A DNA stretch of 64,000 bases from Phoenix dactylifera (lineage: Eukaryota; Streptophyta; Magnoliopsida; Arecales; Arecaceae): the NCBI RefSeq assembly GCF_009389715.1, contig NC_052409.1:3127275-3191274 (forward strand), in the 5' to 3' direction. Position 1 is the stretch's first letter. Every line of letters begins with the position of its first letter. Positions 3,411 through 53,216 of the stretch are shown here, piece by piece. The notes under the pieces are model-generated. The model made no database searches. It saw only the letters and a list, made by a program, of their open reading frames with translations, and was not told where the DNA came from. Position numbers and translations under genes: made by a program.

Positions 3411-3415
3411 TTCCA

Positions 3416-27343: not shown

Positions 27344-27702
27344 CTACAACCAACATAGATCAATTCTAACTTTAAAGATAAAACCTTAAAATTAACAAAT
27401 GCGTACATACATACAACATACATACATACATATATATATACACACACACAATAAAAAGAAAGTTTAGTGTATGTGCATGCACCGTAGAATGTTGAGTAAT
27501 GTTTGATAGCCACCATATTTTCCGATCAAAGAGATGGATGGTTAGCTGGATGGCCTAATATGCTATATAAGGCATGTCCTTCTTGATAGCCATCCATCTC
27601 GTGATGGCGGCTGGAGCAAATACTGCGGTGCAAAACATGAACAGCAAATGCTAGATGAGGGTGTACACACGTTAGAGCTATATGAATTGCCCTTTTCACC
27701 CT

Positions 27703-27767
27703 AAAAAAAAAAAAAAAAAAAAGAAAAAGAAAAAAAGAAGAAGAAGAAGAAGAAGAAGAAGAAGAAG
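27703..27767. repeat. Poly(A) run and (GAA)n microsatellite
   Basis: A run of about 20 A is followed by A/G-rich DNA and about ten GAA units (27737-27767). It ends 15 bases from the F-box stop codon, so it falls in that gene's 3' UTR, read there as UUC repeats. Confidence 0.85.
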
Positions 27768-27781
27768 CTAGATGAGTAACC

Positions 27782-28759: not shown

Positions 28760-28807
28760 CTTTCTTGATCTGCAGGAAGACACAGCTGTGTGAACTCCCC
28801 AGGTACG

Positions 28808-28814
28808 TTATATA
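28808..28814 (-). promoter_or_regulatory. TATA box of the F-box gene
   Basis: TATATAA on the minus strand (context CCACTATATAACG) lies 49 bases upstream of the ATG. This predicts a very short leader and supports ATG 28759 as the start. Confidence 0.6.
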
Positions 28815-28829
28815 GTGGAGTTTACTTGG

Positions 28830-30577
28830 CGGAAAAGATTGTGGGCGAATCGAAGAGTTCAGGAAAACTGCACTCCTACTGGGACTTGGAGGGAGAGCGG
28901 TAGCTACGGAAGTGGAGTATTTATCGGAGTAGGATTTGTTTCTTTCTAGCCAAGTTAGGGTAATACACGCCTTCAAAGTGAGAATTAGTCATTACAGCAT
29001 GGGCCATAACTGGCTCGAAATAGATTTTGTGTCCACAGATGGTCATCTTTAGTTTGCAACAATCAGAGATCGACGTGGGATAGATTTGGCTTGGGCTTTG
29101 ATCTTGAAGATAAAACAGAGATGACTAATGACCAGGGTTGAAACTGGTCAGGTTGGATCCAGATGGCCTAACACAAAGCTAGCCCGAACTGGCTTCTAGT
29201 TTAAGCTTCAGACTCTAAAGTGAACCGATTACTCATCTTTGCAACGTAATCCTGTTTTACGTCCAAGAATTAGCAGTCTAAACAAAATAAGACATCGATA
29301 GGTTATCTTTTCTTTTTTCCCTCCAGCCTATGGATGCAATGTATGGATGATGGATCCGTGAACAACTTATAATAATAAAGAAAATCCAATCATTAAGAAT
29401 AAACAAATCTTATCTTCTGGTAAAAATTAAAATTTAAAAAAAAAACAGTAATACATCGTCAAGCCTAAGAATGACTCATGATCCTACAGTTATCTGCTTG
29501 AATATGGTCAACGGTTTCGTAGATACTAGTAATTTGAGGAAAAAAAATAGATATGACAAACCCAAAATAGAACAGCAGCCAAATCGGTATTTCAGTATCA
29601 TGACACAGATGGACACCTGAAAGAGGCGACCGATACTTAAGGTAACAGAACAGAATTACATGCTGAACTCCCTGAAAACACAAGCAAGATAACTCTCTGT
29701 ATGTAGGGTTGTGTAGATGTAACAGATGGGCAATAAATACTTTTAGGAGTTGTGCAAACAGGACCTCAGTCTTTGTGCACAGATAGGTACACTAACATGG
29801 ACTGACTCATGCATTGCAATGTGACCCTGATACCAAGCAAAGCCTGAAAATGAGATACAAATTTTGGGTGCCCAGGCCAAGCGGCACCTATCACTAAATT
29901 GCCGTTGGTGAAGCAGTGATCAATGGGTTCAGGCTCCGACCATGTTGCTTAGGCCAGCATCACATTAAGCTTCCCCTACAACAACATAGGCACGCAAGTA
30001 CTTCTAATGTATTGTCAATTAACAGAAGAAAGAGTATACATTTTTCCATTTTTGAAAAACCATGAGTACGATGCCTGGCATGGATTAGCACAGAAGACCA
30101 GAAAGCAAACATTTGAGTAGATCCGCTTATAGATAATATAACTCATGAAAGGGAAATGCATCCCATTCGAGAGTAGGGTGTTTCACAGAGATGAAGGCGA
30201 GAAAAGCGGCAACTGAAATTATGTAATGGATGTCAGATTCATTATAGTGGAAATGCGAAGCGAAACAAGTGCCTGCTCAAAGCGTAATGGATCAACAACA
30301 TTTAAATTATATAACAGATCTAGAGGCATACCACAACATTCAGCAAATGTCAGAGTCCAACCGAGCTAGAAACCATTTCATGTTTGTCTTGGGATTACCT
30401 GAAAATGGCTTCTTCAAGAATAACTAGGTAGGGTCTCAACTCTCAGGTATTATAATTGGACTTGTCCATAGAGTAAGGATGGATCATGATAGTTATCTAT
30501 ATGGTAATCTTGCAACCTTTGATGAATTGCCAATTACGTAATTAAGATTTGATGCAATTAAGGTTTGAGGAATGGAA
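28830..30577. other. Intergenic, between F-box gene and Copia element
   Basis: The first few hundred bases should hold the F-box promoter. The rest shows no coding region, RNA gene or repeat structure that I can support. Confidence 0.5.
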
Positions 30578-30582
30578 ATCCA

Positions 30583-31404
30583 TGTTAGCAATATATTATA
30601 TAAATAAACAAATAAATCTATAAATGCAATTAATGGAAAATCTTAAAAGAAATAATATGTATATCATTCAGTATCCAAATAATTCTATTTTAATGTAAAA
30701 TAAATCTATGCATTTAATAAATTTATATCATAGAATTTCAAATCCTACAGATCTACTAATATTAAATTAAAAATAAAGGTAGAAGAATTAAAGTAGCCTA
30801 ATTGAAGGCAGGTCGAAGCGCGTAGATACTGTCCCAAATAAGTATTTGCCCCCACGTACGGATCTCCCGGCAATCTTTTTCTGAGATACGACGACCCTAT
30901 AACTTCTTCTTCGGCACGTCTCGGAAGAAGTCAAAGCGAACCCGATTAGACTTGCAGATCCAGCGAAGAATGAAAGAAAAGGCTAAAATAAAATATAAAA
31001 GAACAAGAATAAAAATCACAAGTGGCTAAGAGGAGGAAGAACTTTTCTTCAGAATTTTTTCAATATTTTTCTCTAATTTTTCGTGTTTCGAAAGAGATGA
31101 AATTGAGGGGTATACATAGGGGTATGGGATCAGGGGCAAAATGGTAATTTTGCGGATGCGTCTGCGGTAATTATGCTGCCAACGTTGGCGTTTCGCTGAT
31201 TTTAAACGTACAAACCCGCTGGCGTTTCCTTGTTCTCAAACGCGCACGTGCATGACTGGCCAATTAGAGCCACGAGGTGCGTGGTCCCCAGCTCAAATCC
31301 AAATAACACGATTTTAAACGCGTAAAACCGCTGGTGTTTCCTTTTTCTCAAATGCGCACGCGGCCCGAGATTTGGTCGTGTGCGCATTTAAGTTTTTTCC
31401 AACA
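30583..31404 (-). repeat. 3' LTR of the Copia element (822 bp)
   Basis: It runs from TGTTAGCAAT to TTTTTTCCAACA on the plus strand. It matches 36763-37597 along its length with scattered substitutions and small indels. Relative to element sense, this is the downstream LTR. Confidence 0.93.
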
Positions 31405-31931
31405 ATCCCCCACAAAAATTAAAATAATTTTAAACTCAAAATAAAATGTTGGATAACTTATATTATGTAATAGGTGTAGGTACCTTTCGGTTTGAACCTT
31501 CACTTAGTGACAATTGATTACATCTATGGAGCCAAGGTGGTCTTAACCTTGAACCTCGGTCCATGGCTTAGAATAAATCAATAGCAAACATAATATAGCC
31601 CGATCTGGGTTCTAAGCGGGTTGCGCTATTATGGCCATGCGCAGGTATCTATCATGTGCTTTTTAGGAAATCAACCATTTGCCATAATCGCGACATCACG
31701 ACTACACATATAGGTGAGTCCTAATAAGGAAGCTAGCAAGAAAGCTTCTGCCTCTTGGATCTCGGGCTCATTAAGAGTTATACAAACGAACTCATTCTAC
31801 CGCTTGCTTTTATGAGCACTAGCGCCATAGGGATGAGAAAAACATGAAATAGTGCTCCTTTTAGTCACAATCTGATTTGTTTCTACCCATTGAATCTTTT
31901 AAGATTGGGTTTTCACCGTGGTGATCTATCT

Positions 31932-33420
31932 TTATGGGCTAAGCCACATCCCCCTCGACGACTCTAGAACCACTATTCTAGATAAACCTTTTGTAAGCTG
32001 ATCAGCCAAATTATTTTCTGATTTTACAAAATTCAGAGCAATAACGTTATTTTTTAATTTATATCTTAATGATTTATAATGCACTTTTGAGTGCTTGTTC
32101 ATTTTTACATTGGTATTTTCTTGGTTGCACTTATCTATTGTAGATTTACAGTTACAATGTAAGGAGACAGGTGGTAAAGGTGACTCGTCTACATGAAGGT
32201 CTATTAGTAGATCTCCAAGCCACTCAGCCTCAGTGCTAGTGGTATCTAAAGTTATCAGTTCAGACTCCATGGTACTCCTAGATATTAAGATTTGTTTGGT
32301 GGATTTCCAAGACACAGCAGCACCTCCTAGAAGAAAGACGTATCCTATGGTGAATTTAACATCTAGGGTATCGCTGATTCAGTTGGCATCACTATAATCT
32401 TCTAGAACAGCAGGAAACCCACTAAAGTGCAAATTATAGGACTTGGTACCCTTAAGATACCTAAGGATCCTCTCTAATGCTGTCCAGTGATTTCTATTTG
32501 GATTAACAGTATATTTACTAAGTCTATTTACATCATATGCTATGTCTGGCCTGGTATAGTTTGCTAGAAATCCTAGTGAGCCTATGATTTGAGCATATAG
32601 GCTTTGAATGATAGAAATTTTTAAATTCTTCTTAAGGTGTGTAGAGGGATCAAAGGGAATTGGAATAATAAAATTTATTGAGTATCTTGTCAACATAATG
32701 ACTTTGGGATAACTCAATTCTATTTGCACTTCTAATTATTTTGATATTTAAAATTAAGTCAGCTTATTCCAAGTCTTTCATATCAAACTTATGACTTAAA
32801 AAATTGTTTTACTTCATCAATTATCTGAAGATCTGTCCCAAAGATCAGTATATCATCTACATAGAGGCACAAGATAACAAATTTATATCCAACTCTCTTA
32901 TGATATACATATTCATCTATGCTATTGATTTCAAAACCAAATGTCATTATGGTTTCATCAAATTTCAAGTGTCATTGTTTAGGTGCTTGTTTAAGACCAT
33001 AAAGAGATCTGACTAGTCTGCAAACTTTATTTTCTTGGCCTGGGATTACAAATCCCTCTGACCGGTCCATATAGATTTCTTCATTTAAGTCTCCATTTAG
33101 AAAAGCTGTCTTGACATCCAACTGATGAATTACTAATCTATGGATGGAGGCTAATGATATAAGAACCCTAATAGTTGTAATCCTAGCTACAGGTGCATAG
33201 ACATCAAAGAAATCTACCCCATGTCTCTAAGTAAAACCCTTGGCAACTAATCTAGCCTTAAATTTATCTACAGAGCCATCAGGCCTAAGTTTCTTCTTAA
33301 AGATCCATTTGCACCCTATAGTTTTACAGCCAGGAGGAATATCAATCAATTCCCAAGTATGATTTTGGATGATTGACTACACCTCATTGTCCACAACTTC
33401 TCTCCAAAAAGGTGAGTCCA
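31932..33420 (-). pseudogene. Copia reverse transcriptase and RNase H, broken
   Basis: Minus-strand fragments in several frames give RT motifs in order: WIFKKKLRPDGSVDKFKARL, LDVKTAFLNGDL, EIYMD, and the catalytic LYVDDILIFG (YVDD near 32852-32863). RNase H pieces follow: STEAEW and [10 protein letters not shown] at 31932-32315. Internal stops (for example near 33230) and frame changes separate the pieces, so no active enzyme is expected. Confidence 0.85.
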
Positions 33421-33802
33421 AGAATTTCATTGCAGCCTCAAAGGTAGTTGGAGAGTCTTCTATAAGAAAGGTATAGAAGTCATCTCCAAATGTTTTCTCT
33501 ACCCTGAATCTTTTACTCCTCTTAGGTTCTGCTTCTACTTCTATTTCACTTGTCCTTATTCTACTAGAGTTAAAAGCTATACCGCTATCTACTCTAGTCC
33601 TAAGTGGAAAGGCATCTTCAAAATATGTTATATCTCTGGCCTATATGATGGTGTTGTTACTAATATCACTTTCTTCTGAATTAATCACCAGAAATCTATT
33701 GGCATTACTATTGACTGCATATCCTATGAATATAGCATCCAATGTTTTAGGTCCTATTTTCTTTCTTTTAAAATCAGGTATTTTTACTTTTGCCAAGCAT
33801 CC

Positions 33803-34777
33803 TCACACTTTCAAATAGCTAAGATTAGGTTTTCTATGTTTCCAAACTTCATATGAGGTTAGATCATTATTTTTAGAGGAAATCCTATTGAGGATATAAT
33901 AGGCTGAAACTAGAGCCTCCCCCCACAAATTCTCTGGTACTCCTGAGCTTATAAGCATGGAGTTAACTATATCCATTAAAGTCCTATTCTTTCTTTCTGC
34001 TACTCCATTTGATTGGGGAGAATGGGGTGTTGTTACTTCATAAATGATTTCATGATCTTCACAAAATTGAGTTATATCATTAGATGTATATTCACCTCCC
34101 CTAAGTATTTTAATATTCTTTTCCTGTTGGTTCTCAACTTCGATCTTAAAAATCTTAAATTTGCTGAATACCTCATTCTTGATTTTAATTAGGTAGATGT
34201 AACAAAATTTGGATAGATCATCTATGAAGGTCACAAAGTATCTGTTACCTTTCCTGAAAGTTCTACCCAAGTCACAAACATCACTATGGATTAACTCTAA
34301 TAGATCCGAATCCCTATTAACAGATTTAAAAGGCTTCCTAAGAAGTTTTGCTTCCACACAAATTTGACATTTCTCATGGTTCTTAAGATCACTTTTTGGT
34401 ATTAGATTTAGGTTCATGAGTTGCTTAATTGAATTATAATTTACATGACCTAATCTACCATGCCAAATAGAAGGAGGTTCTATATTCATAATCAAAAGAT
34501 TTTCATTCATTGAGGGAGATATTACATTCAACTTAAACAATCCTTCACTTATGAACCCTTTTCCAATAAACATTACACCATGAGAAATTACAACCTTATT
34601 GGACTCAAAAACAAGACGAAAGCCTTGCTGGACTAGCAAAGAACTACTAATGAGGTTTCTCCTAACAACTGGAATATGTTGGACACCGTGCAGGGACAGG
34701 ACTTTTTCAGAGGTAAGCTTTAAGTCCACACGTCCTACTCTTAGCACACGCGCCTCCAAGTTGTTTGCCATGATCAC
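33803..34777 (-). pseudogene. Copia integrase region, open but truncated
   Basis: A 324-codon open stretch. It holds the pre-integrase zinc finger IWHGRLGHVNYNSIKQL with CQICVEAKL (HHCC), then the catalytic core: HSDVCDLG (first D), GEYTSNDITQFCEDH (second acidic site) and the Copia block SPQSNGVAERKNRTLMD with its Glu. It ends at a stop after SYLKV, just before a readable continuation (GCLAKVKIPDF), so one stop splits pol here. Confidence 0.88.
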
Positions 34778-35035
34778 AACTCCTCCACTTGAGATCTGGT
34801 AAGAAAAAAACCAGAAGCGATCCGAACAAATATGAATACCAGCTCCGGTATCAATCCACTAATCAAGTGCTTGTAAAGTCATGTTAACTTCAGGAGCGAA
34901 GAAAACATATTTGATAGCTGTCTCAGAGGAGCCAGCGCCGGAAGTCACTATGTTGACTTGAGCACTGGTTGTGAGTGGACCTTTCTTCTTAGATTGAAGA
35001 GGTGCAGTCTTCTTATAGAAACACTGGAGAGATAA

Positions 35036-35981
35036 ATGGTTGGTCCGACCACACACATAACAGAAACGAGCACCACCTTCCTCTTTCTTCTTCTTCTGCT
35101 CCTGGGATTGAATAGGTTTTCTATTGTAGTGGTGGTTTGGGTTTCTAGGGTAGTAGGGTTTCTTTTTGAAGTTCTTACGGAAGGGTCAGTTCTGATTTTT
35201 CTTAGGAGGGGCCTTTACATTATATGCATTATTCTTGGGTCCAGTAAAGGTATTACTCCTGAGCCTGTGCTGCTCTTCAATCCTAATGGAGTTCAAAACT
35301 TGGGATAGGGTGAGAACTTTTTGGGTATGGCTCAGGATCTTAGTAAAATCAGACCAGAAAGTAGGTAGTTTATCAATCAACAGGCTACCTAGAATGATTC
35401 ATCCAAATTGGTTCCATTAGCCCTAAGCTGGTGGATCAGAGTTTCAAAATCATGGATTTGGTCACTCATAGCTTTGAGTCCACCATCCTAAAATTATTGA
35501 AGTCGGAGGCCTTGAACCTTTTTACCCCAGCATCATGAAGACCATATTTGCTATCTAGGGTGTCCTAGAGTTCTTTGGCACTCTTGGCTATATAATAAAT
35601 ATCATACAACCTCTCAGAAAGAGCACCTAGAATTCTATGGATACAATGATAATCTATCTTGTCAGGTGTCCTAGAGGGTGTGCTAGTAGAGGCAGAAGGT
35701 TCAGTGTTGAAAGAGGTTGAGTTTTGGTGAGTAGCATATCGTAAAGTAGTTGGGTTGGACCCGTTATTAACTTTAGTAGTACTTTCACCTATGGCTGAGA
35801 TCAATCCCAATGTGGTGAGCCAGAACTGCACTTGGTTCTGCCACTTCCTAAAGTTATGACCATTAAATTTTTCAGATTTGGCACTAAGGTGGTCACTAGT
35901 ATTTGAGGCCATAGGATCAGGGTTACAGAATAGAGACAAAAACCTAAATGAAGGCAAAAAGTCTATGTCAAAAGATTGCAC
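35036..35981 (-). pseudogene. Copia gag with zinc knuckle, broken
   Basis: It starts around ATG 35912-35981 (MASNTSDHLSAKSEKFNGHN, then FRKWQNQVQFWLTTLGL), a typical Copia gag N-terminus. It continues through frame breaks to CYVCGRTNHLSLQC, a CX2CX4HX4C zinc knuckle near 35036. It would form the virus-like particle; stops near 35400 and 35560 disable it. Confidence 0.8.
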
Positions 35982-36229
35982 TAATATTTATATTGAATTT
36001 TGGATATCTAATTGATATATCCAAAAAACTAATAGCCAGATCAGCTCCAGATCAGTGGTGGAGCACTAGGCTCACTTAAGTACCAGCCTTTCTTAGGCAC
36101 GTATGCCTTTTTGACAAGCTTTTCTTAGACACTATTAGCTAGTGGATATAGTCACTAGAAATCACACAAATTCAATTTTTAGAAAAACCAAAGTGCAAAC
36201 TTAAAAATTTGTTAAAAAGGATTAACTAA

Positions 36230-36755
36230 TTTTTTTCATTTTTTCATTTGAATTTTTCGAATTAGTAACAATTGATTACTAAACTTAATGCTAGCAATTA
36301 TTGTAATTGAAATCTAATTTGTCAATTCAATGAATTATATATATTAGAATTGATTTATTTCCTTATTAGAATAATTGATTACTAATTTAGTGCCAACAAA
36401 TCAATTATTGTAATTGAGATCTAAAATATCAATTCAATGAATTATAAAATTTATTATCTTATTAGAATAATTGATTGAGATCTAATAAGTCAATTTAATA
36501 AATTAAATTATTATGTATTAACCAATTTCTGAATTTTTCGTTTGAATGAGATCTAGAAATTACTCCATGAGGAGTCCAAATGGAGGTATAATAAACCTTT
36601 TGGAGGTTAAGCAAATTGTTACCTTTTTAGAATAATTGATTATTAATTTTTATGATAGCAAAACAATTATTTTAATTAAAATCTAATTTGCCACAATTGT
36701 AATAAAGGATTTAATGAATTATATATTACTAACAAAAAAAATAAACAATTACTTC
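36230..36755. repeat. Diverged AT-rich tandem repeats in the Copia leader
   Basis: About four unequal copies of a unit of roughly 100 bp, built from AATAATTGATTACTAATTT, a CAATTATTGTAATTGA block, GATCTAA and ATTCAATGAATTATA. Copies start near 36257, 36363, 36459 and 36627. They lie between gag and the 5' LTR. Confidence 0.6.
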
Positions 36756-36762
36756 TTTGGTT

Positions 36763-37597
36763 TGTTAGCAATATATTATCTAAATAAACAAATAAATCTA
36801 TAAATGCAATTAATGAAAAATCTTAAAAGGAATAATATATATATCATTCGGCATCCAAATAATTCAATGTAAAATAAATCTATTCTAGCACAAAATAAAT
36901 CTATGCATTTAATAAATTCATATCATAGAATTTCAAATCCTACAGATCTACTAATATTAAATTAAAAATAAAGGTAGAAGAAAGTAGCCTGATTGGTTGA
37001 AGCGCATAGACGCTGTCCCAAAGAAGTATTTACCCCCACGTACGGGTCTCCCAGTAATCCTCCTCTGAGATACGACGACCCTACAACTTATTCTTCGGCA
37101 TGTCTCGGAAGAAGTCAAAGCAAACCCGATCGAACTTGCAGATCCAACGAAGAACGAAAGAAAAGGCTAAAATAAAATATAAAAGAGCAAGAATAAAAAT
37201 CACAAGTGGCTAAGAGGAGGAAGAACTTTTCTCCAGAATTTTTTCAATATTTTTCTCTAATTTTTCGTGTTTCGAAAGAGATGAAATTGAGGGGTATATA
37301 TAGGGATATATGATCAGGGGCAAAATGGTAATTTTGTGGAAGCGTCCGCGGTAATTATGCTGCCAGCGAAATGCCAACAGGCGTTTCGCTGATTTTAAAC
37401 GCGCAAACCCGCCGGTGTTTCCTTGTTCTCAATTGCGCACGTGCATGATCAATCAATTAGAGCCACGAGGCGCGTGGTCCCCAGCTCAAATACAAATAAC
37501 CCGATTTTAAACGCGTAAACCCACTGGCGTTTCCTTTTTCTCAAACGCGCACACGACTCGAGATTTGGCTGCATGCGCATTTAAGTTTTTCCCAACA
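36763..37597 (-). repeat. 5' LTR of the Copia element (835 bp)
   Basis: It runs from TGTTAGCAAT to TTTTTCCCAACA on the plus strand. It has a short insertion near 36880 (an extra AAATAAATCTA-like unit) compared with the other LTR, so the pair has diverged since insertion. Confidence 0.93.
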
Positions 37598-37602
37598 ATC
37601 CA

Positions 37603-39617
37603 TAGTCAAAGTTCTTGATGTTTGTTCATCCAAACCTTAATCTCAATATGGATAATTGAAGATTATTTGGAAACCGAATTCTTAGATCGTCGACTTAAAA
37701 GGTCATTTACACACCAGAGGATCATTCTCTAGCATATAGTTTCATTTCAACACTAGCCTGTCAAAAAAATTATGGAGGTGAAGTTTACAGTCATTAATAG
37801 TTGCCTTCTTGAAAACTGATACAAACGATAGGGATGGAATAAGCAAAGGCTCCCCATTTTGGACTTACATATTCACAATTTCAGCAAGTCAATGCAAGTT
37901 CATTATTTTCTCCAAGAAGTGACAAGAAAGCAATATGAGACAAACTACTTCTAATTGATTTGCTTTGGTTCCTTGACACTGAAGTTGAACTAGGTGTCTA
38001 ATTAGTATGGTGCCTAAATTGGACAAGTTCTCAAGAGGCTTGTGGTAGGGGTTTTAGTTGTTTAGTCTTTATGGACACCAGCAAAAGCCCATATAGTTGT
38101 TCAGAATAAGATGCCAACAAATATGAAGAAGATTTTATAAACACTCAAAAAGTCTGTTCTGAACCCTCCATTCTTATGCATGAGCCTCTATATAAGGTTA
38201 ATACATTATGTATTTGGGTTCATACATCCATCACTTGTTGTATCGTTCTATATGCGTATGTTCTTTATATACTCAGCTAGGTTGCCTGATGCCTAAATAA
38301 AAGATGGCGCTTAATTAAGTTCCTACACAAGTTTGATGGTATCAGTCTATCAGAGCATGGGATACAGCTATTGGCTGTTGTTTTGTTGACACCAACCATG
38401 GGGACATCACATATGCAACAGCTGACCCCAAATTTGCTACCATTCACTTTCATGGAAACCCTGAAGAAGTTGTATACTAGATTAGACCAACAACTCAAAA
38501 ACTTGTAGTTGGTCAATTGTTAAGGGCTTAGATCATTCAATTGAGGAAAGTTGATCCTACTTAAGAACCTGAGATCTGAACTTGATAGTAATGAAAAAGC
38601 CTCATAACTTATATGAACTGACGTCGGGTGGAAACTCAAGCTCGAAAAATAATTTTGCTGCATTTTTTTTTATTTTCAGAATAAAAAATGAAGGATAGAA
38701 TTCTAACTCCATTGATCTTTTCCACTTAGCCTACAATAGACCTCCTAGTTAGTAGCTATGAGTCTCAACCTAGTACAAGGGCTCTCCTAAGTCCTAACCA
38801 ACTGCTCCACATAAACCTGATAATGTGGTCACGTTGCTGCTCTGACAAGTCCCGTTATTGTGGAAAGCAAGCAAGATAGAGGACTAACCCATGAGACTGA
38901 TGATTGAGTTGAAATGTTGCAACTTGGAGTAAAGGAGGGAGGTGGCGATACAATAGCGAAAGAAAGTATTACTCTCAGAAGAAGTCTGAATTTGATTGCC
39001 CTGCAGGAATTTGGAGATGGCACTGGACTGAGAACTGCATATCCAAAAGATTGAACTTCATTACTATAATGACCCAGATTTTTGGGCTCGTGTGCCAGCC
39101 CAGCCCGACCCAAACTAGCCCAGCCTGTGCGCTTATGGGCCGGCCCGAATGGGCTAAGCCTGAACCCAACCTGTGCTCGGCATGTGGGGGGATCGGGGAA
39201 GAAGACCTAGATTGAGAGTTTTCTTTCTCCATTAGAAATTTCTTCCTTTCCGACTCTGGTGGAAACGATGACTCTCCGAGGGCAACTCGAGTTCGATTCG
39301 AACTCAAGGATCTTGGAATTGGTAGCTGGCTGTGTCTGTTCCACTAAGTACAATGTATATTTGTTTGCTAAATTCTTGGATTATAAGAAATAGTGGTCAT
39401 CATACGGTGTATGCGCAATTGCGTATCCAGCTATGCTTAATAATAAGTGCAATTATCTCCATAGAAAGCCTTATACGACGCATGATCTGCCGTCTGTTGT
39501 TGCTCCTAAACACATCTTTTCCGTCTGTGTATCGAGAGAGGAGAAGGCCTGGTGCGATGGTTTGCAGAGATAACGATCGGACGCCCGCATATCATTTGAA
39601 CGCGAGACAATATCCCT
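37603..39617. other. Intergenic, between Copia element and CTNNBL1 promoter
   Basis: I see no coding region. A split primer-site-like string (GGTATCA ... AGAGC) near 38339-38357 hints at an old retroelement scrap. GGCCC/GGGCC-rich non-coding repeat sequence lies at 39070-39190. Confidence 0.45.
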
Positions 39618-40052: not shown

Positions 40053-40182
40053 TAAAAAGGGAAACGGGAATTTGAAACGGGAAGGGGTTTTTTTTGTCCA
40101 AAAGCCTCGTTTGGTACTCTCTGGAAGTCTGGATGGTTCGCTGGTCTTGACCTAGGGTTTGGTGTTCCCTTCTCTGAGAGCC

Positions 40183-43100
40183 ATGGAGAACCACCATAAG
40201 CGGAAGCGCGACGAAGCGCCGGCGAGTCCTACGGCCTCCGTGGAGGCCGCCAACGGCGGCGGAGAGATCGACCTCTCCCTCCTGGAGGCGGTGGAGAAGT
40301 CCCAGAACGGCGGCGTGGAGGTCCTCGACCTCCGCGCTCTCAAGAAGCTGGTGCTCTCCTTCGAGCGCCGCCTCCGCGACAACCTCGAAGCCCGCATGAA
40401 GTATCCCGACCAGCCGGAGAAGTTCGCCGACACCGAAATCGAGCTCCACGAAGAGATCGAGCGACTCAAGATCCTCGCTGGCGGCCCCGAGCTCTACCCG
40501 GACCTCGTCGCCCTCAACACCGTCCCCTCCATCGTCGGTCTCCTCGGCCACGACAACACCGACATCGCCGTCGACCTTGTCGGCCTCCTCATGGACCTTA
40601 CCGACGAGGACGTCCTCGAGGACAACGATGAACCCGCCCGCGTCCTCGTCGACGCCCTCGTCGAGAATAACGCCCTCGAGCTCCTCGTCCAGAACCTCGG
40701 CCGCCTCTCCGAGGCCGACCCCGACGAAGCCGCCGCCATCTATAGCACCCTCGCCACCATCGAGAACATGATCGAGGTCAAGCCCACGGTCGCCGAGCTC
40801 GTCTGTGAGCGGACCAAGCTCCTGCGCTGGCTCCTTGGGAGGGTCAAGGTCCGGGAGTTCGACGCCAACAAGCAGTACGCGTCAGAGATCCTAGCGATCC
40901 TGCTGCAGAACAGCACGGCTAACCAGAAGAGGCTGGGACAGATGAATGGTGTCGACGCGATGCTGCAGGCCGTGGCCATGTACAAGTCGAAGGACCCTAA
41001 GAGCACGGATGAGGAAGAGATGCTGGGGAACCTGTTCGACTGCTTGTGCTGCTTGCTTATGCAGATGGAGAACAAGGAGAGATTCTTGAAGTCGGAGGGG
41101 GTGGAGTTGATGATCATCATAATGAAGCAGAAGAAATCTGCTTATGGGTCGGCAATCAGGGTCCTTGATTTCGCGATGACAAAGTATCCTCCAGCTTGCG
41201 AGCGATTTGTGGATGTGTTGGGCTTGAAGACGGCATTTGCTGCTTTCATGGGTAAGGCAAGTTCTCCACTGCTACCTTCTTCTTCAATACTTTTCTGTTT
41301 TTAGATTTGTTAAGGATGAGATGCATTTTAATTTATTCTCCATATCTAGATATTGAGCTAGACTGGCTTGTTTTTGCTCCTTTGCATGTTGGATTCCATG
41401 TCATAGCCATAACTCCTCAGCTAGTCTGGAAAATTGAGGCAAATTTGATGGTTTCGGTGGTCTTGGCTCTACTTTTGGCATTTCCATCCAAAGAATTATA
41501 AAAAGAACCAACGGTTAATTAAAAAAGGGAAAAGGTCGAATGCACAAAAAGAAAATGTCAATAAAGCTAATAGATGTTATTTGAATTTTATTTGGGCCTG
41601 GTTGATGTGCAGTTTCAGTGATTTCATGCTAAAATTATTTAAAACTGAATATTTTTTCAAATGAAAAGCTAAATAAAGCTTGATTTGTGGTTTAAAAATG
41701 TAATGGATCATTTTATTGTTCTGATGGCAATCTAATTTATGACTATTTACATATTCATGAGATTTGAGCGTTAAGACTGTAGAGCTTATGTCAAAAATTT
41801 GCTTTCTTTTTTTGATACCTAAAGCCACAACAATTCTAAATCTTTGAAAAACTCACAAGTTTGAGTTTCTTGCTAATAGCAAATATTAGCTGAAATTATC
41901 TGTATATATGATAATTTTAGCCCCTATAGTTAGTCTTTGCTGAAAATATGAAACTTACTTTAGATTTTGGTTTAGTTGTGGATTTCTGTTTTGGGGTTCA
42001 GGCTGAATCTCAAAAGCATATTTCTCAATTTAACTGCCTTTTGGTTGTTGAATCATAAGCGAACTACTGCTTATGAAACTAGTGAAGCAATAGTTGAAAA
42101 TAGCCCTTCACAGGAAAATGGTGATGAAATAAGACCAAAGAAGCAACTATTCATAATGGGGACTCTTATAGACTTGTCACCTTCAGCTCCTGTGAATATG
42201 AGAAAACAATTTAACTCAATATCCTAAGTTGGACTTTTAGTTGTTCTGTTTAGATTTCAACAATTGAGAAATCTTATAGTTGGATAACTAGTAATGCATA
42301 TCTTTTGGGTTTATCTGTACATGAAGGTCCATTTATCTAATCCCACTGCCTTTTCCTCTTAAAATTGATAATTAGTTGTGTACAACTTCATGTGGCTTGA
42401 GATAACCCATTGTAAATTGTTTATGTCATATTGGTGACCCATGGGTGATGTTCTATAGAAAGGGACATGTTGTTGATCAAAATTTTCAGATCCAAGGCCA
42501 TGATACCCTCCAAAATTCCACATTATTATATTGTAATCTGTAAAGATTGATAATTACTCCTTGCTATGTAAGCATCATTATAGTGCCTTTTTTTTTTTTA
42601 AAGTCAACTACCCATACAAAAAGAGGCTTACCGATAACACAACTATGAGGTACCAAATGCCTTGGTTTAAAAGATGATGATGCGGAAAGAATTTCTTTAG
42701 ATGATTGGTTTTCTGCTGCACTGTTGGATTCGCAAGTTGTAAGAATAATGTTCTTGCTGGCATTGTGTGGCTTCTATTTTGGTGACTCCATCCTCATCAA
42801 GGTCTTCCAAAAGGGCTTATTTATTTTGTTGTCTCATCATTTCAATTACATATCTTCACCAGGTAACTTCTTGATGGTTTCAATAAGTGCATATGTAATA
42901 TTTAGTGCCACTTGACAGGTGCCTGGGACATTTGACAAAAAAACATGATGGATGTTTTGAAATAATGCTTTCATAGCACTTTGATGTAATTATGGCCCTA
43001 TGCTTCCATGTTAAGGATTCAGGTCTTTGCTGTGAAATTTGTTTATAGAACTATAACTCAAACAATAAGACTGATGTTCTAATGCAAAAGAGAGTGGCCT

Positions 43101-46100
43101 TATTGTATTAGTATCTCTTAGGTGATGAAATCAGCATCTTTGAAGGCAACATAATGTTGGAAGGGTGATGATGTGATAAGAATGCAGATTTAAATGTGTC
43201 TAGTTTCAGAACCGACCTATTTTTAACTATCATGTAAAGTGAGATAGCATTAATAAGAATAAAAATGAAAATGTATAGAAAGTAATAACGGACCCGCATG
43301 AGAGAAATCTACAGCCACTAGCATTAGTTATTGAACTCTTAACCTTGCCAAAAGAAAAAATTCCCCCTAGGCATAGGTAGGGGTGGTCAACCTAGGTCAC
43401 GTGCTGAGATTCTTTAGGGTTATCTAGAATTTGGATAGTAACAAGAAAAAGCAGCCTGTGTAGTACTTTCGGGGCCTCTGTGGTTTTCAAATATATAGGC
43501 TCATATTGGTGCTCAAAACCGTTACCAGAATGGCCCAAATTTTTAATCCATGATGTTTCATAAGGGGTAGAAGTGGATCCTAGTGAGCATTAGTTGGTGA
43601 ACAATGCCCAAGCCATAGGCAGATCAGGTCTTGTTATTGGCCGCTCTTGCGGGATTCTCCCCTCTATTAGTGCCCACATGACTTTTTCTGAGGGGTATTG
43701 TATTGTAATTGTAATTCCAAAAGGAGCATGTAATTAAACCAGGGACTGTAGGAGAGTATGATATGTAGAGAGGCGGCCTCAGATTGTGAGGAAGCATCAA
43801 AATAAAGATGGGCAAGGCCATGGATTTGTAAACTTAGCTTGTATGTTTGATGTTTCTCATGATGAGAATAATTGTTCCAATGCATGTGAATCTATAATTT
43901 CCATAATGATTTGAGTTGCTAAGATACTCCAAGATGTGTTGGTCAAATTCATTCCTTTTGCATTTAGAGTTATGTGGTTTTGTCTTGGCAGGAAAATGAT
44001 ATAATTTCGGTCTCTTTCTGATAAATGCCATCTCTATTTGTTGATATTTAATATTTATGTTCCATGTGAATTTTTATTTCCTCTTAAAGCAGGATGATCT
44101 TGTGGGTTGTTTTCACATTGCTGTTTGTTGGACTGTGCCCCTTGTTTGTCTGTGTTACACTTAGCCAGAAATGAGTTCATACTTCATAGTGCTTTTTAAA
44201 TTGATCACACCCTTATTCTTTTCATGCATTATTTTATATGCATTGTTTGCATATCATTTTCATTCATGCATCCTTTTTTTAATTTTATATTCTATTTAGA
44301 TTCCGGTGGGCAGGAAAAATAACAAAGAGAGCTACCAAGAGGAGTTAGAAGAGCGACTGATTTCGCTGATTGCATCATTATTTGGTAAGGCAAGTGGATT
44401 CTAAAATTTTGAATTTATTGTTATCTTGTATCTTACATGTCATGTGTTTGTTAATTTGCGAGTTAATTTGTTTATGACTGTATATTCCACTCGTGGAACC
44501 CAGTGTGTCTATACCATATTGTTGATCTTGAGTCCTTGATGATGGTGAAGTTGGACGAAGTTAAGTATATCTGATAAGCAAAGTAATTGTTAGGTTTGAT
44601 GCAAAATGAGAGACAATTTTGTGTAGATTTGCTGGAGAATATTGTTAATTACTTACTGATGTTAATATGGTAGTACATCAGGAAGAAGGCTTGTTTTACA
44701 AAGTAGAAAACATGAAAACCTGAGTTTAGAAGGAATGAAGAATCATATATAAATATGCATATGAATGACTTATATATCTTCCCACTGATTCTTGATGCAT
44801 CCTAGGGTTAGGTCTGCATGAAATATGGTTTGGAAACCTTGGAGAAAGGAAAATTAAGTTTCAACTAGATTTCTAGGCTATGTCCCGAAATTCCAGGAAG
44901 CAATAAAGGCACCTAAAGTGCGAGAAATCCCTTGACTAAGTTTGTAACAAAATAAAAACAAGAAGGAAGATGTTTACTGCTGATATAAAGTTTCAGCATG
45001 CAGAAACAAGGCATTAGCATGCAAAGATCTCAATAAATATGTTCAATATAGCAAATCAACCACCAGAAATAGCATGTAGCAAAAGATCTTGAAGTATGCA
45101 TGCTATTTAATATATAAAACTAGGATAGCAACAGATATAAATAAAGATTCGGAATAAACAACACCAATTTCAGCAAGCAAGATAGGAGGGAAAATAAGTG
45201 AAGAGGAAGAAGAGGAAGCAGAGAAGAGAAAAGAAAGAATGGGAGAGATGGCACCAAGAGGCTGTCAGGGAGGAAGCCATCTTTTTGTTTCCTCAACTGT
45301 CCAAGAAAAACTGACTAATTAATCCAATAAATGCTTTTGTAGTAAAGGAAGCCCTAAATAAATTGAGTTCCCTAAAATACCCTTCAGCGGTACGCTAGCA
45401 TGAATAGTAGTACATCATCTAGCTAGCGAAATAAGTCCTCAGATTGTTAAATCTCACCCCTTTATATTCTAGACTTGCTAAAAATTAAATTAATACAGAG
45501 ATGAAAGAAGGAAAAAAAGAAGATTAAAAAATAGTAGATTAAAATATTAAGCTAGTCTAGGCTCGATGATGATGACTTGCAGCCCATTGCGCTTTGCTCG
45601 CCTTCGACCTCGATGTCTATCTTGGATATGGTCCAAGAATTCCTTTGTAAGTGGAAGCTATTCTCATTTGAGGAATCCGGTGTGAAAAGCAGTTAACTGC
45701 ATATCATATTTTTAGCTTTGGTTTCAGAGGATGCAAAGTTGCAAACAATGATGTCGCCTTTTACTGTAAAGGGATAGCTGTTCATCCTTGTTACATGAAT
45801 AGCATCTCAATCATACAACCATGGGGATCCAAGTAAAATATCACAGGCATCCTTCAGGACTACAGTGCATCTAACTTAATTTCACCCCCACCTCCAAGGT
45901 GAAATGCAAACTACGAATCTTTGTAACCATGGTTTGATTATATTTTGTGAGCCAATTCAAGCTATAAGGTTTTCAATGTGGTTCAGTTTTAAGGCCCAAT
46001 CTCTTGACTATCTCTATAACCAAATTATCCATGCTCCCACCATCAAAGATCAGAATACTAGAATGTCCTTTGCACTTGCCCATTGTACTGAAGATGCTAT

Positions 46101-49100
46101 CGCTTGTCCACTTATTATAACATCATGCCATTAGGGCCAAAGGCTCATTCATCGAGTCACCCTTCACAGTCATATGTAGGATTTGATTGTCTTGTTCTTC
46201 AATGACTTCAACCTCATCCAAGTCTGCTGCTAAAGTAGTGATGGTTTTCCTTCAGGGCACATGCTGGCCATGTCCCTTCTTCCCATCGTGATGACTAGTC
46301 ATGCCTACAGCCTTGCTTTCTCACTCACTTGATTAGCCGTTGCCAGTGTAATTGGAGCAACTGGACATGGCCTATGTGCAATCTCTTGGAGTGTCTTTAG
46401 AGCATCGCTCTTTTAAAGCTTTGCTTCAATCTTAAATGCATCATGATATAAATCCTCAACTGTCCAATATCAATGTCCAATCAAATTTTTCGGAATTTCT
46501 TCTTTCAGCCCATGCCTTATATTTAGTTGCCAATGTCCTTAGAATGAAATAAAACTATCCGCATGGCCTCCTCATGAACTGTTCAGTGTAGACTTGCATG
46601 TTATCATCCTTTTGATGAAGCTTATGAAACTGAGGTTGTAGATGATGAACATAACCTGGAGGAAGAAACCTTTCTCATGCATCTGTCACCTCCTCCCAAG
46701 TTTGAATACCTCGGCCTTATCTTCTACTATCATCCCTCCACCATATGCATGCTGCTCTTGTCAACTTTAGCTGTAGCAGATGAATTTTCTCACTTCAGTC
46801 AGCTGATGCCAATGAAAGAAAGCATGGCAATCAAAGAAAGCATTACAATTTGCCTCCCAATCTATAAAAGCTTTCAGCTGCATCTGACCTTGAAATTCAG
46901 GTACTTCCGAACCTTATGTTCTTCTTTGCTGAAAAGTGATATGTACATGGGCTGGTGCTAGGTTACCCATGGATCTATAGGTTCCACTCGAATTGTATCC
47001 AGTCAACCTGTTACATGAGATGATTCTGATGGCTCCTTTACTTTCCATTTGACATCCTCCTGAAATTGAAGCTTTTAGTTGCCACTTGTCTTCCAGATGC
47101 TTGAATCATTTATCTAGCCATGCTTATGATCCATCAAGTTGCTCCTTATTCTCTTTCTTTAGATCAGGGTATGAAAACATAGCAAAGGGTTCAGATTTTG
47201 GAGAAAATCGAGGGATCCAGTGGGTGCTCTGATACCAAAGTTATACAATTTAGGGTTAGGTCAGCATGAAAGATGGTTTAAAAAACTATTAGAAAGGAAA
47301 ATTAGGGTTTCAAATAGATTTCTAGGTGCTGTCCAGAAATTCCTGCGAGCAATAAAGACTTCTAAAATTGTGAGAATACCCTAGACCGATCATCTTTTAT
47401 AAGTTTGTAGCAAAACAGAAACAAAGTGAAGATGTTTACTGCTTCTATAAAAGTTTCAGCATGCAGAAACAAAGCATTAACTTGCAATGATCTCAATAAA
47501 ATCATTCAGTGCAGCTAATCAGCCACCGGCAATAGTATGTAGCAAAAAATCAAATAGTATGAATGTTATTTGAGATACAGAATAAGGAAAACCAATTTCT
47601 GCAAGCAAGATGGGAGAGATATGATCAAGAGGCCGGTGGAGAAGAAATAGAAGAAGCCTCCCCCCCCAAACCCTTTTTTTTCCCAATGTCCAAGAAGAAA
47701 CTGATTACATTAATCCAATAAATGTTTTTGTAATAAAGGAAACCCTAAGTAAACTTAGTTCCCTAAATTGCCCTTCAGAAGCAACTGGTTACCATTCATG
47801 GGTATTGTAGCATGAACAGTACCATGCACAGTACTGCTGTAGTATGGGGGATCATCTAGCTATCAAAATAAGGCCTGAGATTGTTAAATCTTACCCCTAT
47901 ATATTATAGACTCACTAAAACTAGACTTAAAACAGAGATAAAAGAAGGGGAAAAAGTAGATTAAAATACTAAGCAAATCTAGGCTCTATGATGATGACTT
48001 GCAGCCCATCAATACATCAATTCTATATTAAAAGCAAATGATTTTTTTGACATAGTATTGATCAAGGATTACTGTGCTGGTACTGGAGCCCATACCAATC
48101 AGCCGGCGGCATGGTTCGGTACGCCCCCATGCCGTTCCATGTTGGGCCCGTACCGACATAGCAGAGAGGGCAAGGGAGAGGGAGAACGAGAGAGAGGAAA
48201 AGAGAGAGGGGAAAGGAGGAAGAGGGAAGAATGGAGGAAGAGATGATGAAGGCCGGCGGAGCACGGCCAGACACAACAGAGAGGACGGGGGAGAGGAAGA
48301 ATGTGAGAGAGGAAGAGAGAGAGAGGGAGAGGGAAGGGAGAGATATGGAGGCCACTGGAGGGTCGAGGAGTGGCGTGGAGAGGCAAGGGGGTTGTTGATT
48401 TCACTTAATATATGCAAAATAAAAAAAGGCCCCGACGAACCCTTATTTTAAAACGAAACAGGGATCCAGAGGGTGTAGCCTTTCCTTTGCCCCCCCCCCC
48501 CCCAACGCTACTCCCCGGCCCTCCGATGGCCTTCTCACTGCGCCCTCCTCTCTCTCTCTCTCTCTCTTTCTATCTTTCCTTCTTCCTCTTCCCCTCCTTC
48601 GCCAGTTTCTTGTTTTGAATGCCAGAACCGTCCTGGTCCGCCGCCAGCACGAGTCAATATGTGCCGTACCGAACTGTTCGGGATGGTTCTGCATTCCTTG
48701 GTCTTGATTATTACATTGTATTTGACTACTTCATTTTTCTATTTTCTTTTTGTGGATTTGGCTATAGTGGTGGCGGTGGTGGTAATGCTAGCAAGGCTGT
48801 GGTTATGGAGGTGGTAGCTCTACAAACAGAAAATGAAAGCTTAGAATCACAATATTTTGTACTTGTTTTTTGGATATTTTGAATATCTTTTTAAAAATGA
48901 AATCAACAAAAAAAGTTCGTCAACTATGTTTTAGATTGTCTTTTTTGTTTTTCTGCTTTCAAAAGTTAACAAACAGGAAACAAAATTATTGTCAAATGGA
49001 CCTTTAGCTCTGCTTTTTCTTTAAACTAAGATTTGGGCTTTTTGTCTACCTTAGAATTTAACCCGCAAATGTTGATGCATTGGTTTGTGCATTTTAGCTT

Positions 49101-52100
49101 TCTTTTATTTATGCCTTTGTTTACCTAATTTTTGGCACTACTTGTATCAAAGATCTCCCTTTTTACGAAATACCAAGCACTAGCAAGCCTTCTCCGATGA
49201 ATATGGTTGTCTTTATGGATCAAAGTTACACCAATAATTAATTAATTATATGTGTATGTATGTATTTCGTATATAGCGGTGGAAAATGATTGGGTCCAAG
49301 TCAAATCCAAGTTCAACCATCTGTAATTATAGCTATTCATCTATGATCTGTCCTAGACCCAACCAAAGCCTCGTTCTCTGACAAGATTGTATGTTGAAAA
49401 TAGAATTTTGTTCAATCTGGTCAACCCCGATGTGATCTGATTCTCAACCACAACAGTGATCGACTATAGTAATAGGGACATGGGGATGTGGTGCATTTTT
49501 TTTATTTTATTTTTATTTTATTTTATTTTATTTTTTTTTTGGGGGGGGCGGGCGGGGGGTTGGGGAGGTGCAGTTTGGTCCCTTTAGGCAGGAGATCTCA
49601 GCCGGAAATTGCGCATGGAGGGGAGAGCAGAAGATGTTAGGGTTTCTTTAGAGAGAGAAGGGGGTTAGGGAGGGGGGATGAGGTATACCTTGTGGCGGGT
49701 GGTGAGGAGCGTGATTTGTAACCGTCACCTGGGTAAGAATCTCATTGACATAATTAAGAAGTGCATGGGAGTGTGAGTTTAGGTGTACAAAGCATAGGAG
49801 TCCAACACAAGGTGGGAAAGTTAAATGCGGTTATCTGTATCTCATGTAATCTCTTTGTGTTTGGTTAGGGTCACGAAAGGGAGGATGGATGGGGTTGGAA
49901 GGATGGATGGCCTCCATCCACCGTTTGGTTTCATAAAATTTTAGGAAAAATGAAGGGAACATGTGAGGGGTGGGTTTTTACGTTGACAAAATTACCCCTT
50001 ATTTTTTGACAAAAGATAAGAGGCCCACACACCACCTTTTTTTATCAAAAGGTATTTTAGCAAAATTGTGATACAAATATCATCCATTCTTCATTTCGTT
50101 CTTCCTATACCAATCAGAGGAGGAAATCATTCCTATCTATCCTTTCATGTTTTGCCAAACACATGGGAGAATGGATGGAAGACCCATCCATCCTCTCCCT
50201 CATCCGCCCTTCGTCCAATCCATCTTTCGTACCAAACAGAGGGTTAGAGATATATCGTGTGTCTTTATCTCCTATTCCATCAAATAGAATCACAGCCATT
50301 CCTTTTTAATCCACCTGCATTGCACGTGTGAAAGACATGAAACACTAGCTATTTTATCTCAAACACTTTTTTAGTCTCTTATCATTTATCATTCTTAACT
50401 TTTCTTGATTTCTACATATCATGATTTTTTTTCTTTTTTAAATATTTATATTAAATATAAATTGTTCTTGTTTCATCTTAGAGGGTTCTTCTTCATTATG
50501 TATTGAAGCTTCAGAAAGAACTCATAGTTGCTCTGTACATGATTCGCATACCAATTTATAGGGGTTTGACATGGGTTAAGTGCCAATAATACAATCTCAA
50601 ACTTTGATGGATCATGCTTTGGTTAATAAAGCTGACCTTTGAAGCTGGGATTAGGTTCCTGCTTAAGCTCTAGGAAAGTTTTTTTGGTTCAAACTTTTTT
50701 CTAGAAGCAGCAAATTCTTCACCAATTTCCACTACCATGCTTATAAGCCTTCTGGTTATTTCAATCAATCTGGATTCCTATTTTTTTTACCCCATTGAAT
50801 ACAGGTAAATTAATTTTTATGGTAAATCAATTCAATACTGATTACTGACATTTTAATGCTTGGACACTTTAACTTCCTGTTATCTTCTAGGACTACGTTC
50901 CATATTCCTGCACCTCTACCTACTCCTACCTGGAGCTAGCGTTTTTTTTTTTATCCTTTGGTACGGCTATTCATCTGTATATCATCCATCGCTATAAAGG
51001 GGACAAATTTTAGGTTAAATAAAATATAACAATTTGTACACTCATCTCATCTCTTAGCTAGTTAGCCTAGAGGAAATCAATCAGTTGATTACAATTGTAT
51101 GATCTGCTTTAAAATTCTTTTAGCTATTAGTTCATTGGTTTTTAGAAATTTTATTTAATTTAGTCATCACTGTATTGTTTAAATTTCAAAATTCTTATTT
51201 GTCCAGTTTAATCTCATTTATATCCTGGTATATGATAATTTTCCATCAGGTGGTATTGTGAGAGGTTCAAGAAGGGACAGATTGTTAAGCAAATTTGTAG
51301 AAAATGAATGTGAAAAAATCGACCGACTGATGGAACTCTATATGCGGTAAATTTCCAAAATCTTGATGACTTCTTTACAGAATCTTTGTTGCTTGAGTTT
51401 GATTTCTTGATACTGATGTTTCGACTTGTTGCTTCTCACATATGATCAACTGTCATAATTTTTAGGTATTCTGACAGAGTTAAAGCCGAGTCTGAACGAC
51501 TTAGTGGACTTGAATTGGATGATTGGGAGGTCACTATCTCATCTCAGTTTAAAATTTGCATCAACATATTACCTAGGGTTAAGCCTGACATCTGGTCACT
51601 CTTTATTTTTATAGATGGATGAAGAGGAGCGTTACAATCGAAAACTGGAAGCTGGGCTCTTTACTCTTCAAGTAAGCACTATGTTATGATGGTGCACTGC
51701 TGTTATTTTTCTCAAGCATTTCATGGATTAATTTTTCTCAAGCATTTCATCTTTTCAGTTGATTGCAGTTATTCTGGGCCATCTCTGGTGTTCTGAGTAA
51801 GTAGAGCTCAAGCAACTTTTATTTGATCAATTAATTCTGAAACAATGTCCTAGTCTTAATTTTAGATGATGGTTATATGTAGGCACCCACGCATGAGGGC
51901 AAGAATAGAACTACTACTTAGACAACAGAGATTGACAAAGAAGGATGTGAAGGATATACTTCAGGTATGCATTCTGGGAAAAGCCTTTTATTTAATCACT
52001 TCTTCCATATCAGAATTACCTTGATTTTTTGTGTGTCAATCGATTAGGGCTATCACTAATAGCTTTGATATGTTTTCTAAAGTGAAAGTTCCTGCTAGTT

Positions 52101-53216
52101 AATTTCTGTTTATGGACTTTTAGTGCTTGATTAAACTTCAGGTTTCTTTTGTATTGTTTGAGTGACATTATAACTATCATATACAACAGTATGAGAACTT
52201 CACGGAATAATTTGCAACTCACTTTCTGTTAGTATCATGGATGTCATGGTGAAGTGCTTTTCCGTTTTTTTTTCCTTCTTTTTTGAAAAAAAAGAGGAGA
52301 GATGGTGGATGACCCAAGAACAGGAATTACTATTTCCGCCCTCCTCTTTTTTCTGTCCATTCTTGTAGACTGGAGCTTGAGAATCTAAATTTTATTTTCT
52401 CATACGATTTGACAATTGTGTTAGAGCACTATGGTTTTCTCTCTGGGGAAATAGAAGTATGCCCATGTGATGCCCTTGGGTCAAGAGCATTCCAATCTCT
52501 CCCCACTCTTTAAGATGCGGAGTTCAAGAGTTGGAGTCATTTCTTGCTTCCTCATCCTTCTCATGGGTATCCTGGCCATACATGCCGTGGTAGTCTAAAA
52601 GTGTTACATAAGATTGGAGTGCCTTATACATAATGCTGCACTTGGGTTGGAGAGAGATCTCTATTATTTGCATATGTGTAGTATAAATTGCGCGCGACAT
52701 GAATGATTCATGTGTTAATATGAGAAGAGTATTTTTATGGATGATTGTGGGTATCACACTTGACGCCATTCTGATGTCTCCCCCTTTTGCATGCACGGCC
52801 CTTGTATAGCTATGAAATTAAGTTGAAGCATTGAAAAAGCAACGTCTTGGCTAAAAAAGTGGAAGAGAAATGGTACTAAAGTAGGAGCTGCATCCTGTAA
52901 ACTGAATTTCATGGAGGCCAAAGCTACAGCTTTTCTGTATGAATGACTATGGTATCACTTTTATATAGAACGGTGCACTTGGTTAGACATAAGAGCTTCT
53001 TCAAATTGTCATCCTTGGGTCCAAAAAGTTGATGTATTGTCGCTTTTTTTCCAGAAAAGCTAGTCAAATTTCTCATCTATTGGCTTGTCACCAATGTGCT
53101 TTCCATTTATATGCCTCATATTGCAGGAATATCATGATAATATTGGAGATATGGATGGACCTGAAGAGAAGGAGCGAGCACAAGCAAAGATCCAAAAATT
53201 CATTGCTGCATTGTGA
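40183..53216 (+). CDS. CTNNBL1: CTNNBL1 (beta-catenin-like protein 1), ARM-repeat splicing factor, eight exons
   Basis: Exons 40183-41256, 44300-44384, 51250-51346, 51466-51529, 51615-51671, 51759-51796, 51883-51964 and 53127-53216 join to 528 codons plus stop, near the family length. The N-terminus has a basic nuclear signal (HHKRKRDE). The body carries helical armadillo-like repeats, with family blocks LRALKKLVLSFERRLRDN, NTVPSIVGLLGHDNTDIAVD, MDLTDEDVLEDNDEPA, LLVQNLGRL, EEMLGNLFDCLCCLLMQ, QEELEERLISLIASLFGG and ERYNRKLEAGLFTLQLIAVI. In animals CTNNBL1 binds CDC5L and PRP31 in the Prp19/NineTeen complex of the spliceosome; the plant protein is expected to act there in the nucleus. Intron 1 needs a GC donor (AAG then GCAAGT) to keep the reading frame; the others are GT-AG. 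Intron 2 is 6.9 kb and holds a Gypsy element. Confidence 0.95.
44793..48008 (-). mobile_element. Ty3/Gypsy-like element reduced to gag and protease, in CTNNBL1 intron 2
   Basis: Two similar long repeats, 44793-45586 and about 47241-48008, are LTRs; in element sense (minus) they start TGGGCTGCAAG. The primer site TGGTATCAGAGC lies on minus at 47226-47237, a few bases inside the 5' LTR at right. Conceptual minus translation gives a gag piece near 46560-46680 (RFLPPGYVHHLQPQFHKLHQ, then MQVYTEQFM). A protease-like piece follows near 45700-46110 (IFDGGSMDNLVIEIVKRLGL, then KTEPH). Stops are frequent. Reverse transcriptase, RNase H and integrase are absent, so it was mobilised in trans or is an internal deletion. 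No clear target-site duplication is seen. Confidence 0.8.
48114..48674. repeat. Fold-back repeat module with polypurine and polypyrimidine arms
   Basis: Perfect 10-bp inverted words GTTCGGTACG (48114-48123) and CGTACCGAAC (48665-48674) bound the module. The left half is nearly pure G/A (48150-48400). The right half has a C run (48489-48504) and a CT-rich tract (48550-48605). The halves can partly pair, giving a long imperfect hairpin. Overlapping low-complexity frames on both strands are not genes. Confidence 0.6.
49494..49565. repeat. (TTTTA)n tract followed by a G-run cluster
   Basis: A TTTTA/T-rich stretch runs into four or more G tracts at 49541-49565 (GGGGGGGG, GGG, GGGGGG, GGGG with 1-2 base spacers), which meets the G-quadruplex pattern on the sense strand of the CTNNBL1 intron 2 transcript. 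Confidence 0.7.
49851..50245. mobile_element. Probable MITE with GTTTGGT-type inverted ends
   Basis: The left side reads CTTTGTGTTTGGT and, further in, CACGAAAGGGAGGATGGATGG. The right side, inverted, reads CCTCTGTTTGGTACGAAAGATGG and then GAGGATGGATGGG. These mirrored words make inverted ends and subterminal repeats like other MITEs in the window. No convincing target-site duplication was found, so the limits are approximate. Confidence 0.45.

Follow-up and report, generated by a model that had tools for sequence, protein, structure and literature searches.

The reading frame of Phoenix dactylifera CTNNBL1 requires a GC donor at exon 1 beside an overlapping GT site, within the same 12 bases that end exon 2

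The analysed window is a 64,000-nucleotide stretch of the palm Phoenix dactylifera (contig NC_052409.1, forward strand, 3,127,275 to 3,191,274; positions below are those of the window), in which an intact CTNNBL1 gene of eight coding exons, encoding 528 amino acids, was built on the plus strand. Exon 1 (40183..41256, 358 codons) ends with AAG before a GC donor and is followed by intron 1 (41257..44299, 3043 nt, GC-AG, phase 0, acceptor TTATATTCTATTTAG); exon 2 (44300..44384) is 85 nt long, would be 90 nt with a GC donor, and is followed by intron 2 (44385..51249, 6865 nt, GT-AG, phase 1). The remaining coding exons are exon 3 (51250..51346, starting in phase 1), exon 4 (51466..51529), exon 5 (51615..51671), exon 6 (51759..51796), exon 7 (51883..51964), and exon 8 (53127..53216, including the stop codon TGA), all on the plus strand. 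In this gene model, introns 2-7 are GT-AG and intron 1 alone is GC-AG.

The gene had been named CTNNBL1 in a first-pass annotation of the window, and the protein matches bear this name out. The 528-residue product covers the full CTNNBL armadillo domain of Pfam (PF08216, positions 3-474 of 474, E 2e-170, 567.7 bits), and seven human CTNNBL1 chain sequences taken from structures match it with E values from 7.9e-118 to 7.8e-117. The three human alignments shown run through both junctions of interest with gaps of 1-2 residues there, so that they support the frame and not the exact junction residue. As a separate observation on the gene model, the donor of intron 4 at 51530 (GAG/GTCACT, the slash marking the exon-intron border) pairs very weakly with U1 (0.1 kcal/mol), yet it is demanded by the model.

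The 12-base word GGTAAGGCAAGT lies at the ends of both exon 1 (41251..41262, plus strand) and exon 2 (44384..44395, plus strand), where the first-pass annotation had placed it, and the window holds no further exact copy on either strand. Each copy contains a GT and a GC donor, 5 nt apart and in different frames. At exon 1, the productive donor is AAG/GCAAGT (GC at 41257), and the last two codons of the exon, GGT AAG (Gly-Lys), form the decoy G/GTAAGG (GT at 41252); at exon 2, G/GTAAGG is the productive donor (GT at 44385) and AAG/GCAAGT is a downstream decoy (GC at 44390). The gene model frames thus agree with the earlier claim that exon 1 needs the GC donor and exon 2 the GT donor five bases before it.

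Among the four possible donor pairings, only GC at exon 1 combined with GT at exon 2 yields the 528-residue protein. Use of GT at exon 1 adds the seven new residues DSGGQEK (in M-DSGGQEK) and then reaches a TAA stop, while use of GC at exon 2 gives FGKVVL (GKVVL after the junction) and then TGA, the same quick stops that had been predicted for the wrong choices. For the three wrong pairings, the distances from the stop to the last exon junction are 326, 400, and 405 nt, all of them above the 50 nt upstream of that junction that we took as the minimum for a stop of the type recognised by nonsense-mediated decay (NMD).

An extra exon that would explain the frame with GT donors had been named as a finding that would overturn this account; it was looked for in intron 1, and no plausible one was found. 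All 175 AG dinucleotides from 41281 to the last base of exon 2 were tried as acceptors, and a join counted only if the frame stayed open as far as the natural stop. The exon 1 GT donor remained open with four of them, all purine-rich, lying inside exon 2 and deleting protein; the GC donor was open with the normal acceptor at 44300, as well as with four weak purine-rich AGs. The TAG of the normal acceptor is in frame with exon 2, and none of the acceptors upstream of 44300 preserved the exon 2 frame. Intron 1 also contains 129 AG..GT segments of 9-300 nt that would rescue the GT donor, none of which combines a pyrimidine-rich acceptor with a GTAAG or GTGAG donor. An extra exon or an alternative acceptor rescuing the exon 1 GT donor was rejected on these two tests, and the GC donor at exon 1 is needed for the reading frame.

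The strength of U1 pairing differs between the two registers. With the register locked and wobble pairs included, the duplex energies were -8.6 (GT) and -5.4 (GC) kcal/mol at exon 1, and -5.7 (GT) and -5.4 (GC) kcal/mol at exon 2; with Watson-Crick pairs only, GT reached -8.3 kcal/mol at exon 1 and -8.5 kcal/mol at exon 2, against -5.4 kcal/mol for GC. The GT register is therefore the stronger one at both sites. At exon 1 its advantage is clear, with an uninterrupted run of six Watson-Crick pairs to U1 and about 3 kcal/mol over GC; at exon 2 the size of the advantage varies with the way pairing is scored and shrinks to 0.3 kcal/mol with forced wobble pairs. Hence it is at exon 1 alone that the frame requires the weaker donor, and the two sites do not mirror each other. 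The first-pass annotation had described the same tandem as needed in opposite registers; the required donors are indeed swapped, but the sites are not equivalent, and exon 1 is the only place where a real donor conflict is to be expected.

The weaker GC site is a good donor of its kind, AAG/GCAAGT ranking in the top 0.25% by U1 energy among the 4856 GC sites on both strands of the window. Of the seven donors of CTNNBL1, two, those of introns 1 and 2, are accompanied within 15 nt by a competing site at or below -4 kcal/mol, and the other five are not. Predicted local RNA folding at exon 1 showed no consistent difference between registers, both sites having mean unpaired values of 0.33-0.44 over the three fold lengths, and a local structure hiding one register was rejected on that ground; at exon 2, the GT site was less open at two of the three fold lengths and more open at the third.

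A second, intron-containing copy of CTNNBL1 exons 1-2 is located on another linkage group (C17:12818601-12826600), window positions 40128-44484 corresponding to positions 1907-7986 of the copy region. Seven pieces of window 20160-38077 match the 10 kb preceding this copy in the same order, and a further piece (22172-22281) matches out of order, reversed, on its 3' side. According to this collinearity and to the matching introns, the copy is a segmental or whole-genome duplicate and not a retrocopy. It has decayed: the reading frame of its exon 1 is broken and interrupted by stops, and a search of the following 20 kb, with cut-offs that could miss very short exons, found none of exons 3-8. Intron 1 of the gene and of the copy share 80.3% identity over 2227 aligned bases (Kimura two-parameter distance 0.23).

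In the decayed copy, exon 1 ends with ATGGATGGGGCAAGT, which retains the GC donor (GGG/GCAAGT) and lacks the GT decoy; at intron 1 it likewise reads GGGCAAGT. The end of exon 2 reads TTTGGCAAGAAGGCAAGTGG, in which the upstream site is GC instead of GT, the copy has three additional bases, the downstream AAGGCAAGT is common to both copies, and the 5-base spacing is absent. Since the C at position +2 of intron 1 is common to the gene and the copy, the GC donor is older than the duplication and does not represent a sequencing error. The unproductive tandem site is thus absent from the sole relative compared, which is weak evidence on function, because the decay of this copy means that a missing tandem weakens a selected function and does not exclude it. 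Searches of viral contigs and genome contigs returned no other plant CTNNBL1 homologue, and 14 control genomes gave no Pfam match.

The frequency of the word was counted in the 773,078,369-base assembly (2391 contigs). GGTAAGGCAAGT occurs 32 times against 33 for its reversed control, which is background level, and an enriched genome-wide signal was rejected accordingly. Given 32 copies, 0.002 same-strand pairs are expected within 3133 nt, and the modelled chance that exact GCAAGT directly follows a GTAAG donor is 2.9e-4 per donor (117 of 400,000 draws); both figures hold for one word only, since the 12-mer was chosen after being seen. The paired 12-mers are a rare coincidence, much of which follows from the donor consensus at both sites and the Gly-Lys coding at exon 1. 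The sequence GGTAAGGTAAGT occurs 19 times in the genome, and its reversed control (693 occurrences) is unusable as a comparison, probably inflated by resemblance to a satellite.

Merging four sets of repeats reduces the other 30 places of GGTAAGGCAAGT to 25 groups. No open frame running into any of them exceeded 66 codons, a weak test because CTNNBL1 exons 2-8 have at most about 32 codons each and some of the 30 could be exon ends; a Pfam scan of 10 of the 30 frames gave no match. We also observed a repeat family that holds GGTAAGGCAAGT in a near-identical context at three places (L018, L019, L034).

Other features of the window are an amine/polyamine oxidase exon (3803-4435, minus strand, Pfam Amino_oxidase), a gene for an F-box protein with an F-box-associated beta-propeller (27785-28807, minus strand, one open frame of 341 amino acids), a piece of a Ty1/copia-type retrotransposon (33806-34858, minus strand; Pol_BBD, gag_pre-integrs, and rve in the one frame scanned), and an open frame with a zinc-ribbon motif (56051-56275, minus strand), which probably belongs to a different gene lying downstream of CTNNBL1. 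Additional open frames within 31935-35987 look related to the Ty1/copia-type piece.

Taking these results together, we lean, with confidence a little better than even, towards the reading that the strong GT decoy beside the GC donor of CTNNBL1 intron 1 is an accident, leaky but unregulated at exon 1, and that the GC site of exon 2 is essentially unused. Intron 1 would be a U2-type GC-AG intron of the ordinary form AAG/GCAAGT, in which the Gly-Lys codons GGT AAG happen to create the decoy five bases upstream, so that U1 might sit in either register. Use of the GC donor would lead to the protein; use of GT would lead to a frameshifted mRNA with an early stop, which is expected to be destroyed by NMD, and the resulting leak should be detectable and unregulated. 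At exon 2, the same 12 bases may have arisen independently; there the productive GT lies upstream and is at least as strong, and the GC site is probably inert.

Several points weigh against this reading. In human GTNGCN/GCNGTN tandems, whose members are three bases apart, the site with lower U1 energy had more expressed sequence tags (ESTs) in 26 of the 29 confirmed cases described in PMC1779574, and U1 strength alone would by this rule make the unproductive GT dominate exon 1. The rule predicts notable use of that GT, so either something else favours the GC donor or the leak is big enough to affect expression. It is also rare for chance to place the same 12-mer at two donors in a row within a gene, as the expected 0.002 pairs indicate. 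Moreover, use of the exon 1 GT at all, removal of its product by NMD, and the lack of regulation are what we infer from frames and pairing strengths.

The alternative that survives best, although we regard it as somewhat unlikely, is that both decoys are inert, with only GC used at exon 1 and only GT at exon 2; U6/U5 pairing, exonic enhancers or intron context would then decide, and the two 12-mers would be coincidental. The background frequency of GGTAAGGCAAGT in the genome is consistent with this. Strong U1 pairing at both sites is also not sufficient for alternative use, since none of nine selected human tandem donors of that kind was alternatively used by reverse transcription PCR in the experiments presented in PMC1779574, and the 2004 survey entry for At3g02710, the Arabidopsis CTNNBL1 gene, lists no alternative splicing with 12 cDNAs/ESTs (PMC545797). 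However, the donor sequence of At3g02710 is possibly different from that of the palm, and NMD would hide a GT product; the roughly 3 kcal/mol advantage of the exon 1 GT, with its six unbroken pairs, likewise speaks against an inert decoy.

Regulated unproductive splicing, in which the choice between GT and GC at exon 1, and perhaps at exon 2, would set the level of CTNNBL1 through feedback by CTNNBL1 itself, by the Prp19 complex or by U1 availability, appears distinctly unlikely. It accords with the position of the early stops in all three wrong pairings, 326-405 nt before the last junction, and with reports that alternatively spliced genes have more than their share of GC donors, one such donor being required for regulated let-2 splicing in nematodes (PMC2490688), and that alternative 5' splice-site events in human show a preference for GC-AG introns (PMC7242645). 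Against it, the tandem is not kept in the decayed copy, and the intronic surroundings of the donors, compared by eye, show no obvious excess of conservation over the full aligned length of intron 1. It also counts against regulation that CTNNBL1, a component of the Prp19 complex with a chaperone-like role according to the literature, is not known to bind RNA in a way that would choose donors. Self-regulation by this route, proposed in the first-pass annotation, is possible as judged from the sequence and finds no support here.

A more elaborate arrangement, which we consider very improbable, would make the exon 1 GT/GC pair a U1-sensitive valve on the expression of a spliceosome gene, with the exon 2 pair as a weaker second check and a form lacking exon 2 as a possible product. 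If so, strong U1 binding would favour the unproductive GT, and the output of CTNNBL1 would drop when donor-selection capacity is high.

Less probable still is that the exon 1 GT serves to make an isoform by skipping exon 2. The join from exon 1 GT (41251) to exon 3 (51250) is in frame and open to the normal stop, giving 498 amino acids with 30 residues removed; but one in three such joins would be in frame by chance, and the lost stretch is part of the CTNNBL domain, the PF08216 match falling from a single stretch of 567.7 bits to two stretches of 527.3 bits.

Finally, the notion that the +2 base of intron 1 is really T, a single change that would give the much stronger donor AAG/GTAAGT (-10.1 kcal/mol), has next to no probability; such an error of sequencing or assembly was rejected, because the copy on the other linkage group has the same C.

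The exon 1 site is a clean example from nature of a GC donor that, because of the frame, has to compete with a GT five bases away that pairs better; at exon 2, the same 12 bases serve in the opposite register. The site may offer a small, self-contained system for asking which factors other than U1 pairing select a plant donor, and annotation programs that ignore GC donors would truncate or misjoin CTNNBL1. Among the matches listed, our literature searches on CTNNBL1 turned up nothing on the donors of this gene, which is no claim of absence from print.

Among known systems, intron 1 resembles U2-type GC-AG introns. GC-AG introns account for 1.488% of the total in plants, where conservation from one species to another is frequent (PMC7072748); in human and mouse, they are enriched as first introns (PMC7242645). 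The palm intron shares with them GC at +1/+2, the near-perfect AAG/GCAAGT, a normal AG acceptor, and a GC common to an old gene copy, and differs in having a stronger GT donor 5 nt upstream in another frame. The palm case also recalls alternative splicing coupled to NMD (AS-NMD), in that the gene is splicing-related and its wrong splicing is predicted to give NMD targets; unlike in that class, neither regulation nor an unproductive site conserved across species is apparent from the palm sequence.

A further likeness is to frameshifting close tandem donors. Alternative donor spacings of 4 and 5 bp were reported as the commonest in both rice (308 and 265 cases) and Arabidopsis (186 and 97 cases), and GC is strongly over-represented among the alternative donors of these plants (P = 3.05e-47; PMC1769492). 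Human tandem donors 4 nt apart (A5E-delta-4) mostly give early stops and are NMD targets (PMC2423196), and the human GT/GC tandems three bases apart averaged 116 ESTs for GT versus 4 for GC (PMC1779574). The palm tandems likewise have overlapping U1 sites at a 5-nt offset, one of which gives a frameshift and an early stop, the use of both sites being a prediction; they differ in that the pair includes a GC member, which is the productive one at exon 1, and in that the same word has its roles swapped at exon 2. Donor pairs with a 5-nt spacing and one GC member are already known from plants, and palm CTNNBL1 adds a new case to an established class.

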